Origin: Cohnella faecalis
GTDB lineage: Bacteria > Bacillota > Bacilli > Paenibacillales > Paenibacillaceae
DNA: 64,000 bases
NCBI RefSeq assembly: GCF_003570905.1
Contig: NZ_QXJM01000037.1
Coordinates: forward strand, 186,001-250,000
Reading direction: 5' to 3'
The translations under genes and the position numbers were made by a program. Numbering within the stretch: the stretch's first letter is position 1; every line of letters begins with the position of its first letter. Below the pieces are notes generated by a model. The model saw only the letters and a list, made by a program, of their open reading frames with translations. It was not told where the DNA came from and did not search any database. Below are positions 3,890 to 51,728 of this stretch, one piece after another.

Positions 3890-4486
3890 ACGACTAAGCA
3901 AAAGATACTGAACGCGACTCTGAGCCTCATTGCGACGGACGGCATCGAGCAAGTAACCATCCGCAAGATCGCAGCTTTGGCCGGATCTAACGTTGCGCTC
4001 ATCAACTATTATTTTGGCTCTAAGGAAAAGCTTATCGGAGAAGCGATCAAGGTTCAGTTCGATTCCTTCCGCGAAGCGTTCTCGGCGTTGGAGAACCGGG
4101 AAGTCGATTCTCTTACGCGGCTCAAATCATTTTTGCTTCAAATTTTGAGCTCCTTGCAGGAGCATCCGGAATTGATGAAAAGACTGGTCGGTCAGGGGCA
4201 AGAAAGCATGTCCGAATCCCAAGCGGAATACGTCAGCTTTTTCAAAACGAAGGGCTTCGAGCAAATTCGCGCAACCTTGGAGGAAATAACGGGCGAAACG
4301 AACGCCAAAGTGACCTCTGCGATGATGCAGCAAATTTTCGCGGCGATATTCTCGCCCGCATTCCGCTCCGCATGCGCTCGTAAGCAAGCGGGTGCCGACG
4401 ATGACCGGGAGTTTCTGACGAACGTCTCCGTCGAGGAGCAGGTTGACCTGTTTTTCAATCATTATTTTTACCGGTACTTAGCCTGA
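3890..4486 (+). CDS. TetR/AcrR-family regulator with an apparent ACG start
   Basis: A 198-residue one-component regulator with an N-terminal TetR helix-turn-helix (QKILNATLSLIATDGIEQVT, IRKIAALAGSNVALINYYFG, SKEKL) and a helical ligand domain. The full HTH requires translation from about 3890, yet the frame has no ATG, GTG or TTG before 3977; the codon at 3890, well spaced from GAGGTGA, is ACG. Starting at TTG 3977 would remove most of the DNA-binding domain. Either ACG is used, or an ATG has mutated or been misread. A promoter and palindromic operator lie directly upstream. The target beyond autoregulation is unknown; the following LtaS-type gene is a candidate. Confidence 0.75.
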   Translation, partial: TTKQKILNATLSLIATDGIEQVTIRKIAALAGSNVALINYYFGSKEKLIGEAIKVQFDSFREAFSALENREVDSLTRLKSFLLQILSSLQEHPELMKRLVGQGQESMSESQAEYVSFFKTKGFEQIRATLEEITGETNAKVTSAMMQQIFAAIFSPAFRSACARKQAGADDDREFLTNVSVEEQVDLFFNHYFYRYLA

Positions 4487-48011: not shown

Positions 48012-48089
48012 TTGACTTCCTTCTTGGTATAGGCTAATTCTCGCTTCGCTAGTATGATAAATGTGAATTTACATAGGGGAGTGATTGCG

Positions 48090-49081
48090 ATGGTCTACAC
48101 GGCGCATGAAGGAAGATACGAATCGATGACATATCGCAGGAGCGGCAAAAGCGGGCTGAAGCTTCCGGCTATCTCGCTTGGCTTGTGGCATAATTTCGGC
48201 GGTATCGACAAATACGAGAACGGCAGGAGCATGGTTCGCCGAGCGTTTGATCTGGGCATTACCCACTTCGACCTTGCTAACAACTACGGTCCGCCGGCCG
48301 GTTCCGCCGAGGAGACGTTCGGGCGAATTTTGAAGGACGATTTCGCCTCTTACCGGGATGAGATCATCGTCTCGTCGAAGGCGGGCTATTACATGTGGCC
48401 GGGGCTTACGGGGAATGGGGCTCCAAGAAGAGCTTGGTCGCCAGCCTCGATCAAAGTCTTCGCAGACTCGGTCTGGAATATGTCGACATCTTTTATCACC
48501 ACCGTCCCGACCCGGATACGCCGCTGGAGGAAACGATGGCAGCCTTGGATCTGATCGTTCGTCAAGGCAAAGCGCTGTATGTAGGCTTCTCGAATTACTC
48601 GCCGGAGCAGACTCGGGAGGGCGCTCGTATTTTGAAAAGGCTCGGAACGCCTTGTCTCATTCACCAGCCGAAGTATTCGATGCTGTCGCGTCAACCGGAG
48701 AACGGGCTGCTGGACGTGCTTGAGGAAGAAGGGATCGGCTCCATCGTCTTTTCTCCGCTTGAGAAGGGGATTTTGACCGACCGGTACTTGAACGGCATCG
48801 CGACGGATTCGCGGGCGGCGGGACCGAGCCCATTTTTGCGGCCCGAGGAGCTGACGGAGGCGGTTATGTCCAAGGTGGCCCAACTGAACGAGCTCGCTCG
48901 GGAGCGCGGACAAAAGTTGTCGCAGATGGCGCTTGCGTGGGTGCTTCGCGGCGGCAAGGTGACTTCGGCGTTAATCGGTGCGAGCCGATCGTCGCAAATC
49001 GAAGACGCAGTCGATGCTCTGAGCAATTCAACGTTCGCGGACGAAGAGCTGGCGCGGATTGAGAGCATTTTGGCACAATAA
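48090..49081 (+). pseudogene. Aldo/keto reductase (YghZ-like), one frameshift
   Basis: An NADPH-dependent reductase of the AKR14/YghZ type, which reduces small aldehydes such as glyceraldehyde 3-phosphate or methylglyoxal. The first frame covers YRRSGKSGLKLPAISLGLWH and FDLANNYGPPAGSAEE with the catalytic Asp/Tyr; the second covers YGEWGSKKSLVASLDQSLRR, then FSPLEKGILTDRYL and ALIGASRSSQIEDAV. Adding one G to the four-G run at 48401-48404 joins them as YYMWPGAYGEWGS and gives 330 residues, full family length. All expected motifs survive, so an error in the G run is likely. GGGGAG precedes ATG 48090. Confidence 0.85.
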
Positions 49082-49132: not shown

Positions 49133-49137
49133 TATAT

Positions 49138-49310
49138 GTGCCACGAATCATCGCAACTCCGCCGAAGCTTCGAGTGCGAGCCGGAATTGTGCCGCGAATC
49201 ATCACAACTCAAGCCGAAGCTTCGAGTGCGAGCCGGAATTGTGCCGCGACTCATCACAACTCAAGCCGACGCTTCAAGTACGAGCTAGCGATGTGCCGCG
49301 ACTCAATTGC
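49138..49310. repeat. Tandem repeat, about three copies of a 52-bp unit
   Basis: GCCGAAGCTT-type blocks start at 49161, 49213 and 49265, and GTGCCGCGA blocks recur with the same 52-bp spacing. The first copy has a one-base deletion and the last is diverged. Units are contiguous without spacers, and the array ends just before the arsC stop codon on the other strand. Confidence 0.85.
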
Positions 49311-49314
49311 TCTC

Positions 49315-49740
49315 TCACTTTCCGTCCAGCAAAAAGAGCTCAATTCGAGCTTTGATGGCATCGCGCACGTGGCGAAACTGGGAAATGATTTCGTGTTCGG
49401 TTCCGGTTGCTTTGGCCGGATCGTCGAAGCCCCAATGATATTTAATGACATTAACGTTCGTAATGACCGGGCAATGCTCGTCCGCATGTCCGCACAGCGT
49501 TATGACGTAAGCAGCCCGGTTCAACAGCTCCGGATCGATAACGTCCGATGAGTGGCCGGAAATGTCGATTCCGGCTTCTTGCATAACTTGGACAGCTCGC
49601 GGGTTAAGGCCGTGCGCTTCCAGTCCGGCGCTTTTCACTTCATACCAGTCGCTCCCGAGCGCTTTCATGAACCCGTCGGCAATTTGGCTGCGGCAAGAGT
49701 TGCCTGTGCATAAGAAATAGATAAGCGGTTTATTAACCAT
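49315..49740 (-). CDS. arsC: Arsenate reductase, thioredoxin-dependent ArsC
   Basis: A 141-residue enzyme of the low-molecular-weight phosphatase fold that reduces arsenate to arsenite. The P-loop CTGNSCRS holds Cys11 and Arg17; the redox relay Cys83 and Cys90 lies in [10 protein letters not shown], exactly the three-cysteine layout of the S. aureus pI258/B. subtilis ArsC family. AAAGGGGA lies about 10 bases before ATG 49740. It follows arsB by 31 bases, so arsB-arsC is an operon: reduction, then export. Confidence 0.95.
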
Positions 49741-49771: not shown

Positions 49772-51064
49772 TTAGCCAACAACAGTCAGCCACAAATAAA
49801 GCGCCGCCAGAGTAACGAACAATACCGGAATAACGAGGATAATTCCCGTTCGGAAATAAGCGCCCCACGTGATTTTGACCCCTTTTCGAGACAGAACGTG
49901 AAGCCAGAGCAGGGTAGCCAGCGAGCCGATCGGCGTAATTTTCGGGCCCAGATCGGAGCCGATCACGTTAGCGTACACGAACGCTTCATGCAAAGCTCCG
50001 CTCGAATTCGTCCCTTCGATTGCAAGCGCGTTGATCATAACGGTCGGCATGTTGTTCATGACGGAGGAAAGAACAGCGGCTATGAAGCCCGAGCCGATTG
50101 TCGCGACGAACAGTCCTTGTTCGCCGACCCAGGCAAAAAGGTCCCCGAGCTTGTCCGTCATTCCCGCATTGCGCAGCCCGTACACGACGACATACATCCC
50201 GATCGAAAAGACGACGACGGCCCAGGGGGCGCCTTTGACGACGTTCCACGTACGGATTTCCCGATTTCTCCTTGCAAGCGACAGAAACGCGATTGCCGCA
50301 GCGCCTGCGATAATAGAGACGGGAACCTCCAGCAGCCCGCTAGTCATATAAGCCGCCAACAGTATGACAAGAATGACCCATGTGATCCGAAACAAACGAA
50401 TATCCTTGATCGCGTTTTTCGGCTGCTTTAACTGCGCCAGATCATACCGCTTTGGAATGCTTCTTCGGTAGAACAAGATCAGCACGAGCAAGCTCGAAGC
50501 AATGGCAAACAACGCAGGAACGAGCATCCGATGGGCATACTGCGCGAATCCGATTCCGAAAAAGTCCGAGGAGACGATGTTCACGAGGTTGCTGACGACC
50601 AGCGGCAAGGAGGCGGTATCCGATATGAAGCCGCACGCCATGACGAAGGGGAGAATCATACGATCTTCGAACTTCAAGGCTCGCACCATTGCCAGCACGA
50701 TCGGAGTCAAAATGAGTGCGGCGCCGTCATTCGCGAACAATGCGGCTACGGCGGCTCCTAGCAATACGACGTATACAAACAGGAGCGTTCCGTTTCCTCG
50801 AGCCAATCTTGCCACCTGCAAAGCCGCCCATTCGAAAAATCCGATTTCGTCCATCATCAACGAAATCAGAATGACGGCGACGAAGGCCAACGTGGCATTC
50901 CAGACGATAAGGGTCACGTCCCATACGTCCCCAATGTCGACAACTCCGATAATAAGAGCGATAACGGCTCCCCCGCATGCCGACCATCCGATGTTGAGAC
51001 CCTTTGGCTGCCAGATGACAAAAACTAAAGTAATGACGAATAAAGCCGATGCGACAACTGCCAT
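49772..51064 (-). CDS. arsB: Arsenite efflux pump ArsB
   Basis: A 430-residue membrane transporter with about twelve helices. The opening [60 protein letters not shown], and [20 protein letters not shown] are nearly diagnostic of staphylococcal-type ArsB, not Acr3. It extrudes arsenite and antimonite. AGGAGG lies 4 bases before ATG 51064. A MerR-type promoter with a 19-base spacer stands upstream, and no ArsR gene is adjacent, which is unusual. Confidence 0.95.
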
Positions 51065-51108
51065 AAAACCTCCTTGTTGAAGTTTTTCCAATCCGGTATG
51101 CTTGTTGA

Positions 51109-51139
51109 AGCGTATCACTTAAAGCTAGCTTGAAGTCAA
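51109..51139 (-). promoter_or_regulatory. MerR-type promoter and operator driving arsBC
   Basis: On the minus strand TTGACT (51139-51134) and TACGCT (51114-51109) are separated by 19 bases, the stretched spacing of MerR-activated promoters. The spacer holds ACTTCAAGCTAGCTTTAAGT (51136-51117), an 18-of-20 palindrome resembling the SoxR box (13 of 18 positions). The MerR gene starts 14 bases beyond, so one operator can serve both genes. Confidence 0.75.
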
Positions 51140-51152
51140 GGAGGTTTTTCTT

Positions 51153-51554
51153 TTGCTTTCGATAGGCGAAGTAGCCAGACAAAGCGGCGCATCGGCATCG
51201 ACGCTCCGTTACTACGAACAGATCGGCTTGATCCCGCCGCCGCAGCGGATAAGCGGGAAGAGGGCATACACGGAAGAGATTGTCAGCCGCTTGGAAATCA
51301 TTAAGCTGGCCCAGAGCGCAGGCTTTCAAATCGTCGAAATCAAGCAACTGCTGGACGGCTTCGATTCCAATGTTCCGCCTTCGGAGCGGTGGAGAGTCAT
51401 GGCTAGGCAGAAGCAGCAAGAGCTGGAGGAGCAAATCAACCAGATGAAGAGGATGCAGTCCGTACTGGCAAAAAGCATCGGATGCGACTGTCTCTCCTGG
51501 GAGCAATGCTTCTCGGACCCAAGTCCTATGACCATCAAAATGAAAGATGACTGA
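51153..51554 (+). CDS. SoxR-like MerR-family regulator with three C-terminal cysteines
   Basis: A 133-residue regulator: MerR winged helix (LSIGEVARQSGASASTLRYY, ISGKRAYTEEIVSRLEIIKL), a long dimer helix, and a sensor end with Cys111, Cys113 and Cys119 (IGCDCLSWEQC). E. coli SoxR has CIGCGCLSxxxC with four cysteines holding [2Fe-2S]; here the first is Ser108, leaving C-x-C-x5-C. Divergence from arsBC and the 19-bp-spacer promoter suggest that it controls arsenic resistance, perhaps binding As(III) or Sb(III) by three thiolates. That is inference. Start TTG 51153 follows AAGGAGG by 8 bases. Confidence 0.85.
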   Translation: MLSIGEVARQSGASASTLRYYEQIGLIPPPQRISGKRAYTEEIVSRLEIIKLAQSAGFQIVEIKQLLDGFDSNVPPSERWRVMARQKQQELEEQINQMKRMQSVLAKSIGCDCLSWEQCFSDPSPMTIKMKDD

Positions 51555-51577
51555 CCGCGCTAAGCGCGGTTTTTTTA
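51554..51577 (+). terminator. Terminator after the MerR gene
   Basis: ACCGCGC-TAA-GCGCGGT followed by TTTTTTATTT; it begins at the stop codon. Confidence 0.9.
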
Positions 51578-51728
51578 TTTTTTCGGACATATTATCGCCT
51601 GTGGGGGATCGACAAAGAAATCGCAGAACGAAACCAGATCGTTTGACATGATTCTCAACGACTACTGAGTACAATCTTATCTATATCGTAACGAGCATCT
51701 TTCATCCAACCAAGAAAGAGGTGTTGTT

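Follow-up and report, generated by a model that had tools for sequence, protein, structure and literature searches.

Bacterial ars operons are described as being repressed by ArsR. In the genome of Cohnella faecalis an arsB-arsC operon lies divergent from a gene for a MerR-family protein, which raises the question of what controls these efflux genes and to which signal the control responds. The window analysed here is the 64,000-nucleotide stretch of contig NZ_QXJM01000037.1 from position 186,001 to 250,000 (assembly GCF_003570905.1). An initial annotation, made from the letters of the window, had suggested that a SoxR-like scaffold retaining three cysteines controls arsBC and may have become an arsenite or antimonite activator. 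The region to which it referred (51109-51554) extends from the arsB -10 element through the stop codon of the regulator gene. The features of the locus are listed in Table 1.

Table 1. Features of the arsBC locus and of its regulator gene (positions in the window)
Feature	Position	Strand	Basis or remark
arsC, thioredoxin-type arsenate reductase	49315-49740	-	TIGR02691; exact start assumed
arsB, ArsB-type arsenite/antimonite efflux pump, 430 aa	49772-51064	-	PF02040, NCBIfam
Possible promoter of regulator gene, TTGTTG-N17-TATGCT	51074-51102	+	inferred from sequence
arsB promoter: TTGACT (51139-51134), 19-base spacer, TACGCT (51114-51109)	51109-51139	-	
Operator palindrome ACTTAAAGCTAGCTTGAAGT	51117-51136		near-perfect, 20 bases, overlaps arsB spacer
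SoxR-like MerR-family regulator, 133 aa	51153-51554	+	ORF, ribosome-binding site, Pfam domains
Sensor loop Ser108-Cys119 (S-I-G-C-D-C-L-S-W-E-Q-C)	51474-51509	+	alignment with SoxR 119-130
Loop Cys codons: Cys111, Cys113, Cys119	51483-51485, 51489-51491, 51507-51509	+	
Intrinsic terminator of regulator gene	51553-51576	+	CCGCGC-TAA-GCGCGG, then seven T

The arsBC locus and its divergent regulator gene

The pump was assigned by PF02040 (E 1.1e-187) and NCBIfam 2a45 (689.8 bits against a cut-off of 415), and the reductase by TIGR02691 (191.9 bits against a cut-off of 174.3). The start of arsB is best placed at the ATG at 51064 rather than in a longer GTG reading frame. An 88-base intergenic stretch separates arsB-arsC from the divergent regulator gene, whose TTG start is preceded by an AAGGAGG ribosome-binding site and whose terminator region (51545-51590) folds at -14.2 kcal/mol (z -3.49). 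On the other side of the operon, about three copies of a 52-base unit form a tandem repeat (49136-49305) between arsC and an aldo-keto reductase gene. The aldo-keto-reductase-like reading frame (48054-49081) is split, its first part ending at a stop at 48554 and its second part lying in another frame from about 48395, owing to either a frameshift or an assembly error.

The regulator carries the Pfam domains PF13411, PF00376 and PF09278. No HTH_5 match was obtained in it at E 0.001; it has MerR domains instead of those of the ArsR/SmtB type. The general attributes of the MerR family, a winged helix-turn-helix, a long dimerisation helix and a palindrome within a 19-20 base spacer, are all present. 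In the AlphaFold model, a monomer, helices span residues 42-55, 60-71 and 78-109, and the sensor loop follows the last and long one. Model confidence is low at this loop (block means of 67 for residues 111-120 and 48 for 121-130) and hence no thiol geometry is claimed from the monomer.

Within the arsB promoter, 9 of the 10 bases in each arm of ACTTAAAGCTAGCTTGAAGT are paired, a degree of pairing reached by 25 of 5000 sequences obtained by dinucleotide shuffling of the 88-base region between the two genes. The 18-base core of the box shares 13 of its positions with that of E. coli soxS. The commonest form of the arsB box among the relatives, CTTCAAGTTAACTTGAAG, shares 16 of 18. The arsB promoter thus has the soxS-type operator in a 19-base spacer that is expected of SoxR targets.

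Recurrence of the regulator, its operator and its sensor loop

Homologues of the regulator (E <= 1e-15) were found at 20 places in 19 of 60 genomes, namely that of the window and 59 relatives. Among the latter, the nine nearest homologues are, like the window's regulator itself, all divergent from arsB. A scan of named genomes yielded nine loci, eight from Cohnella and one from Gracilibacillus dipsosauri. The proteins form two clades. In clade 1, to which the window's protein belongs, 10 of 11 loci are divergent from arsB, and the Gracilibacillus member adjoins a small Cys-Cys protein, not arsB. Clade 2 (28 proteins, including the single row that bears Ala at the first cysteine place of SoxR) has members in the genus that share 45-58% identity with the window's protein, and is found throughout the family and in other Bacilli. 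The lineage is uncommon: at E 1e-25 it was detected in 32 of the 394 family genomes and in 6 of the 398 class genomes, the window's own being included in each count. The phylum sample of 398 genomes gave the window's own genome only, plus two weak matches of another MerR type. All 33 places of the family-wide search were read, as were 11 places among the 2838 plasmid records that matched. Five loci were dropped before counting: L019, a weak match without the loop cysteines; L061 and L062, the weak phylum matches; L115, which shares identical neighbours with L167; and L184, the same locus as L131. The search for further such MerR proteins beside arsB, which the initial annotation had called for, gave 10 genomes of the genus with the divergent arrangement, that of the window included.

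The operator recurs with the regulator. The box pattern ACTTNAAGNTNNCTTNAAGTNAA has a single match in the 6.4-Mb genome of the window, at the arsB promoter, and 19 matches in 37 genomes, 15 of which adjoin such a regulator gene, while the reversed control pattern gave no match in the same 37 genomes. The pattern misses slightly differing local boxes in 3 of the 17 regulator-bearing genomes (G003, G018, G021). One of the four remaining matches, in G003, is separated by transposase-like genes from a nearby gene for a Cys-Cys protein, and the other three lie in G004. Two of those in G004 flank a different MerR-family gene (L190:3496-4035), which lies upstream of a gene resembling those for alcohol dehydrogenases, so that the presence of such a box does not in itself indicate a link to arsenic. 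The distance from TTGACT to TAnnnT was exactly 19 bases at 39 of 39 loci, and spacings of 14-18 and 20-22 occurred 0 or 1 times; the box counted for Gracilibacillus is the one at the promoter of the Cys-Cys protein. The palindrome and the 19-base spacing reported initially for arsB were borne out beyond the window. Conservation of the promoter and of the cysteines at 39 of 41 loci provides stronger support than the palindrome statistic of one sequence.

Cysteine occurs in the regulator at positions 111, 113 and 119 only, and position 108 is Ser. The phmmer alignment pairs S108, C111, C113 and C119 with C119, C122, C124 and C130 of E. coli SoxR, which confirms the initial description of a C-x-C-x5-C loop headed by Ser108; in the C-x2-C-x-C-x5-C motif, which holds the [2Fe-2S] cluster in SoxR, the first cysteine is thus replaced by this serine. 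At 39 of the 41 family loci read, C-x-C-x5-C is retained and the first cysteine of SoxR is absent, the residue in its place being Ser in 11 proteins (all of clade 1), Gly in 27 and Ala in one. None of the 40 family members having a sensor loop carries all four SoxR cysteines. The pattern has exceptions, since L192, a clade-2 relative (3999-4430), has the first cysteine of SoxR and Arg at the second, hence three of the four but a different trio, and since the L193 protein stops before the loop. At L192 neither a recognisable neighbour nor a match to the box pattern was found; L193 has a box upstream and its regulator gene has probably decayed.

Ser108, Cys111, Cys113 and Cys119 are invariant across the 10 arsB-linked proteins of clade 1, and Ser is also found at position 108 in the Gracilibacillus protein. 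The arsB-linked clade-2 protein L038 has Gly at this place with the same three cysteines, so Ser108 cannot be a general fourth ligand. An extra Cys near the C-terminus is present in 21 of 28 clade-2 proteins and in none of the 11 arsB-linked proteins; the L185 protein has an additional Cys four residues ahead of its C-x-C pair. In the alignment, Ser77 occupies the position at which Bacillus MerR has its other-subunit cysteine; it is kept in at least 90% of 19 aligned proteins, and the available thiols are therefore three from one loop. The other-subunit cysteine near positions 77-82, typical of the metal sensors MerR, CadR and PbrR, is accordingly missing from the regulator. Outside these clades, the Gemmatirosa protein L176:2501-3100 has C-x-C-x5-C without the first SoxR cysteine and is divergent from a thioredoxin-like gene; judging by this protein, the first cysteine may have been lost elsewhere too.

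The family placement of the regulator was addressed by several comparisons. Among 24 PDB sequences searched by phmmer, E. coli SoxR was best (57.5 bits, residues 2-119 on SoxR 12-130) and Bacillus MerR was level with it (57.2 bits over residues 3-106). SoxR (TIGR01950) was the best of 15 NCBIfam families with 89.5 bits, but this is below its cut-off of 116.9. The two clades grouped with each other with good support (95/96) in a 33-row tree, and both clades together with SoxR and the Gemmatirosa protein were split from the other four (100/99), which are two MerR proteins, a CueR and a Nostoc metal regulator; the tree has few rows and flagged long branches, and its root was set by the analyst at these four. 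From NCBIfam and the tree an origin on the SoxR side is likely, and in this sense the SoxR scaffold claimed at the outset is upheld, whereas membership in SoxR itself is not supported. The fold leaves the subfamily undecided: in Foldseek SoxR ranked first (E 3.5e-6), closely followed by CueR, CadR and MerR, and VIA-align 2 placed PbrR691 first (Z 13.7, rmsd 5.9, 118 residues), SoxR having Z 12.0, rmsd 6.6 over 117 residues.

A true SoxR was ruled out, as the four cysteines are never present and the score lies under the cut-off. With E. coli SoxR (PDB 2zhg/2zhh) the regulator shares the fold, the loop position, the C-x-C-L-S-x3-C spacing, the operator type and the 19-base spacer; it differs in that the first cluster cysteine is gone and the target is arsBC instead of soxS. 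AdhR/NmlR proteins share the MerR fold and have a similar box; the MerR protein beside such a box in L190 was assigned a name by none of the searches. AdhR/NmlR are described as sensing aldehyde or carbonyl stress by another mechanism, and MerR and CadR as taking one thiolate from the other subunit (PMC9909328). Promoter architecture, the MerR fold and a thiolate loop after the dimerisation helix are common to the regulator and to MerR (Tn501, Bacillus), CadR, PbrR and CueR. However, Ser77 stands where MerR and CadR have their second-subunit cysteine, and metal sensors such as MerR and CueR lie apart from the regulator clades on the small analyst-rooted tree. A mercury MerR of known type was ruled out by the absence of the second-subunit cysteine.

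Probable exchange with ArsR in Cohnella

An ArsB-like gene is present in all 37 genomes of the genus. In these genomes 46 arsB loci were counted, at 67-100% identity to the window's ArsB, and 15 ArsB-like matches at <=41% identity were left out. A clade-1 MerR protein accompanies 10 of the loci, a clade-2 MerR protein one (L038/L088), and a co-operonic ArsR 25; the remaining 10 have neither a MerR protein of these clades nor a co-operonic ArsR. The co-operonic arsR ends 12-17 bases before arsB, and all 25 ArsR proteins have the C-V-C pair. Among the ten loci with neither, L086, L101 and L139 have another arsR within 0.6 kb upstream and L106 and L133 have arsR remnants; at the other five nothing was recognised by the reference set used.

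A MerR-type regulator and a co-operonic ArsR were never found together (0 of 46 loci; 11 against 25, hypergeometric 2.6e-5, a value that overstates the certainty because kinship is ignored). In an ArsB tree built by a quick method, from which L141 is absent, pumps of the MerR type and of the ArsR type are interleaved, with five changes on the best tree, two of which are forced by well-supported branches. At 4 of the 11 arsB-linked loci a separate arsR is found on the side of the regulator gene away from arsB, accompanied at three of them by an arsM-like methyltransferase gene. These extra genes mark the four as arsenic islands, and an ArsR could take part there.

The claim that the MerR protein controls arsBC is thus supported by 10 divergent loci without a co-operonic ArsR. 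From the linkage, the absence of co-operonic ArsR, the operator and the spacing, which genome comparison established along with the loss of the first cysteine and the retention of the other three, such control is judged very likely.

A proposed arsenic switch and its alternatives

The reading that we favour, and hold to be probable, is that a MerR-family switch from the SoxR side controls arsBC in the place of ArsR, being off when unliganded and activated by As(III), probably also Sb(III), on Cys111, Cys113 and Cys119. The unliganded dimer would sit on the palindrome in the over-long 19-base spacer and hold the arsB promoter off. As(III), and probably Sb(III), would then be bound by the three cysteines of the loop after the dimerisation helix. 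Binding of the ligand would lead to a DNA distortion of the MerR type that brings the -35 and -10 elements into register, and arsBC would be transcribed.

Activation by DNA distortion is established for other members of the MerR family, as is the coordination of As(III) and Sb(III) by sulfur in ArsR. ArsR acts as a repressor that is released from DNA. The regulator, of another fold family, would in contrast be a bound activator, although the two have in common the control of arsBC and a thiolate site based on C-x-C. Three conserved thiols of one loop would fit As(III) or Sb(III). As the first of the four iron-sulfur cysteines is absent, arsenite is probably sensed directly by the remaining three; the identity of the ligand, a trigonal As-S3 geometry and activation by distortion are proposed here. 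Promoters of the MerR type with 19-20 base spacers are weak until the bound regulator distorts them (PMC1526738, PMC9909328), and the regulator therefore most likely both represses and activates.

The neighbours of the sister clade bear on the ligand. They were counted at 28 clade-2 loci (for L110-L122, within 1.5 kb on each side). The Cys-Cys protein adjoins 19 of the regulators and a MerT-like small membrane protein 18, one or both being present at 25; YnfA is found at 9, an ACR3-like transporter at 7 and an arsB divergent from the regulator at 1, and no locus lacks all five neighbour types. The Cys-Cys protein is small, with a Cys-Cys-Pro-Phe motif (L165:3327-3659, L131:4387-4719, L032:4317-4766 and others). 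For the members tried, neither Pfam nor NCBIfam nor PHROG gave a match at E 0.001, and the PDB gave nothing better than E 0.4; it is perhaps a metal or metalloid chaperone. The MerT/MerF-like protein has a C-A-L-C-C-A-L-P-type motif (L032:4747-4998, L165:3686-3922, L167:3666-3917) and a sub-threshold FeoB-associated match only. Transporters adjoining clade-2 regulators at L165:4480-5448, L166:2174-3145, L185:4465-5439 and L186:4465-5454 are named only ACR3-like, as the two that were scored reached 47.8 and 46.3 bits, far short of the NCBIfam ACR3 cut-off of 282.8. One of the seven ACR3-linked loci lies in an arsenic island on a Cytobacillus plasmid, with arsR, arsC, arsD and arsN1; an arsB-like gene of this island (L166:5003-6297) is present as two overlapping reading frames and is absent from the distributed gene table.

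The three thiols could instead sense another thiophilic ion, Hg(II), Cu(I), Ag(I) or Pb(II), the link to arsBC being secondary. The MerT-like and Cys-Cys neighbours of clade 2, and a Peribacillus clade-2 locus near merR1-merA, suggest that the wider lineage may do so, and it is mainly the predominance of MerT-like neighbours that calls for caution on what this lineage senses. Ser77 in the place of the second-subunit cysteine of CadR and MerR points the same way, as the monovalent sensor CueR also has a serine there (PMC9909328). Yet clade 1 is divergent from arsB at nearly all of its loci, with the co-operonic arsR missing there, and an ACR3-like gene or arsB adjoins 8 of the 28 clade-2 regulators, and for the regulator of arsBC another ion is unlikely.

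Marginally less probable again is a protein that has remained a redox sensor, with a [2Fe-2S] cluster on the three cysteines and Ser108, so that arsBC would answer the oxidative stress caused by arsenic, or redox-cyclers. Serine can ligate iron, and Ser108 is invariant in all arsB-linked clade-1 proteins and shared by that of Gracilibacillus. SoxR is, moreover, the best curated family and the commonest arsB operator is close to the soxS box. The SoxR score falls short of the family cut-off, however, and clade 2, the arsB-linked L038 included, has Gly with the same three cysteines. Single cysteine changes in E. coli SoxR reportedly abolish its function.

It is very improbable that arsBC is under an unlinked or neighbouring ArsR, the MerR protein being auxiliary or serving thiol stress (a disulfide switch, sulfane sulfur or electrophiles). 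The window's genome has 14 ArsR-type HTH_5 matches, the one nearest to the co-operonic ArsR being 55% identical with C-V-G, and another, L051, having a C-C pair at the corresponding position. With the assembly at 92% completeness, an ArsR may be missing from it. Against such control, none of the 14 proteins has cysteines placed as in the C-V-C pair of ArsR, none lies on the window's contig, and the box and spacing sit inside the arsB promoter itself. The same genome has seven MerR-DNA-bind matches, and the cysteine loop of the regulator occurs in no other of them. Finally, a one-off or chance arrangement was ruled out by the 39 of 41 related loci that keep the cysteines and the promoter.

Returning to the arsenic-responsive switch, we also lean, with somewhat less assurance, towards a separate origin of arsenic sensing. 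A MerR protein from the SoxR side would have lost the first [2Fe-2S] cysteine, turned the other three into a trigonal site for As(III)/Sb(III) and, as a DNA-bound activator of arsBC, been exchanged for ArsR, probably more than once, in Cohnella; the sister clade would serve ACR3-like pumps and the pair of MerT-like and Cys-Cys proteins in the same or a similar way. Among the matches listed from open-licence PubMed Central papers, none described a MerR-type protein that regulates ars genes or senses arsenic, and the main text of a 2021 review of the MerR family has no word beginning with 'arsen' (PMC9909328). If true, a MerR-type arsenite activator would represent a novel type of arsenic switch and a natural case in which the loss of one ligand converted an iron-sulfur sensor into a sensor of metalloids, and it would be a possible part for arsenic biosensors.
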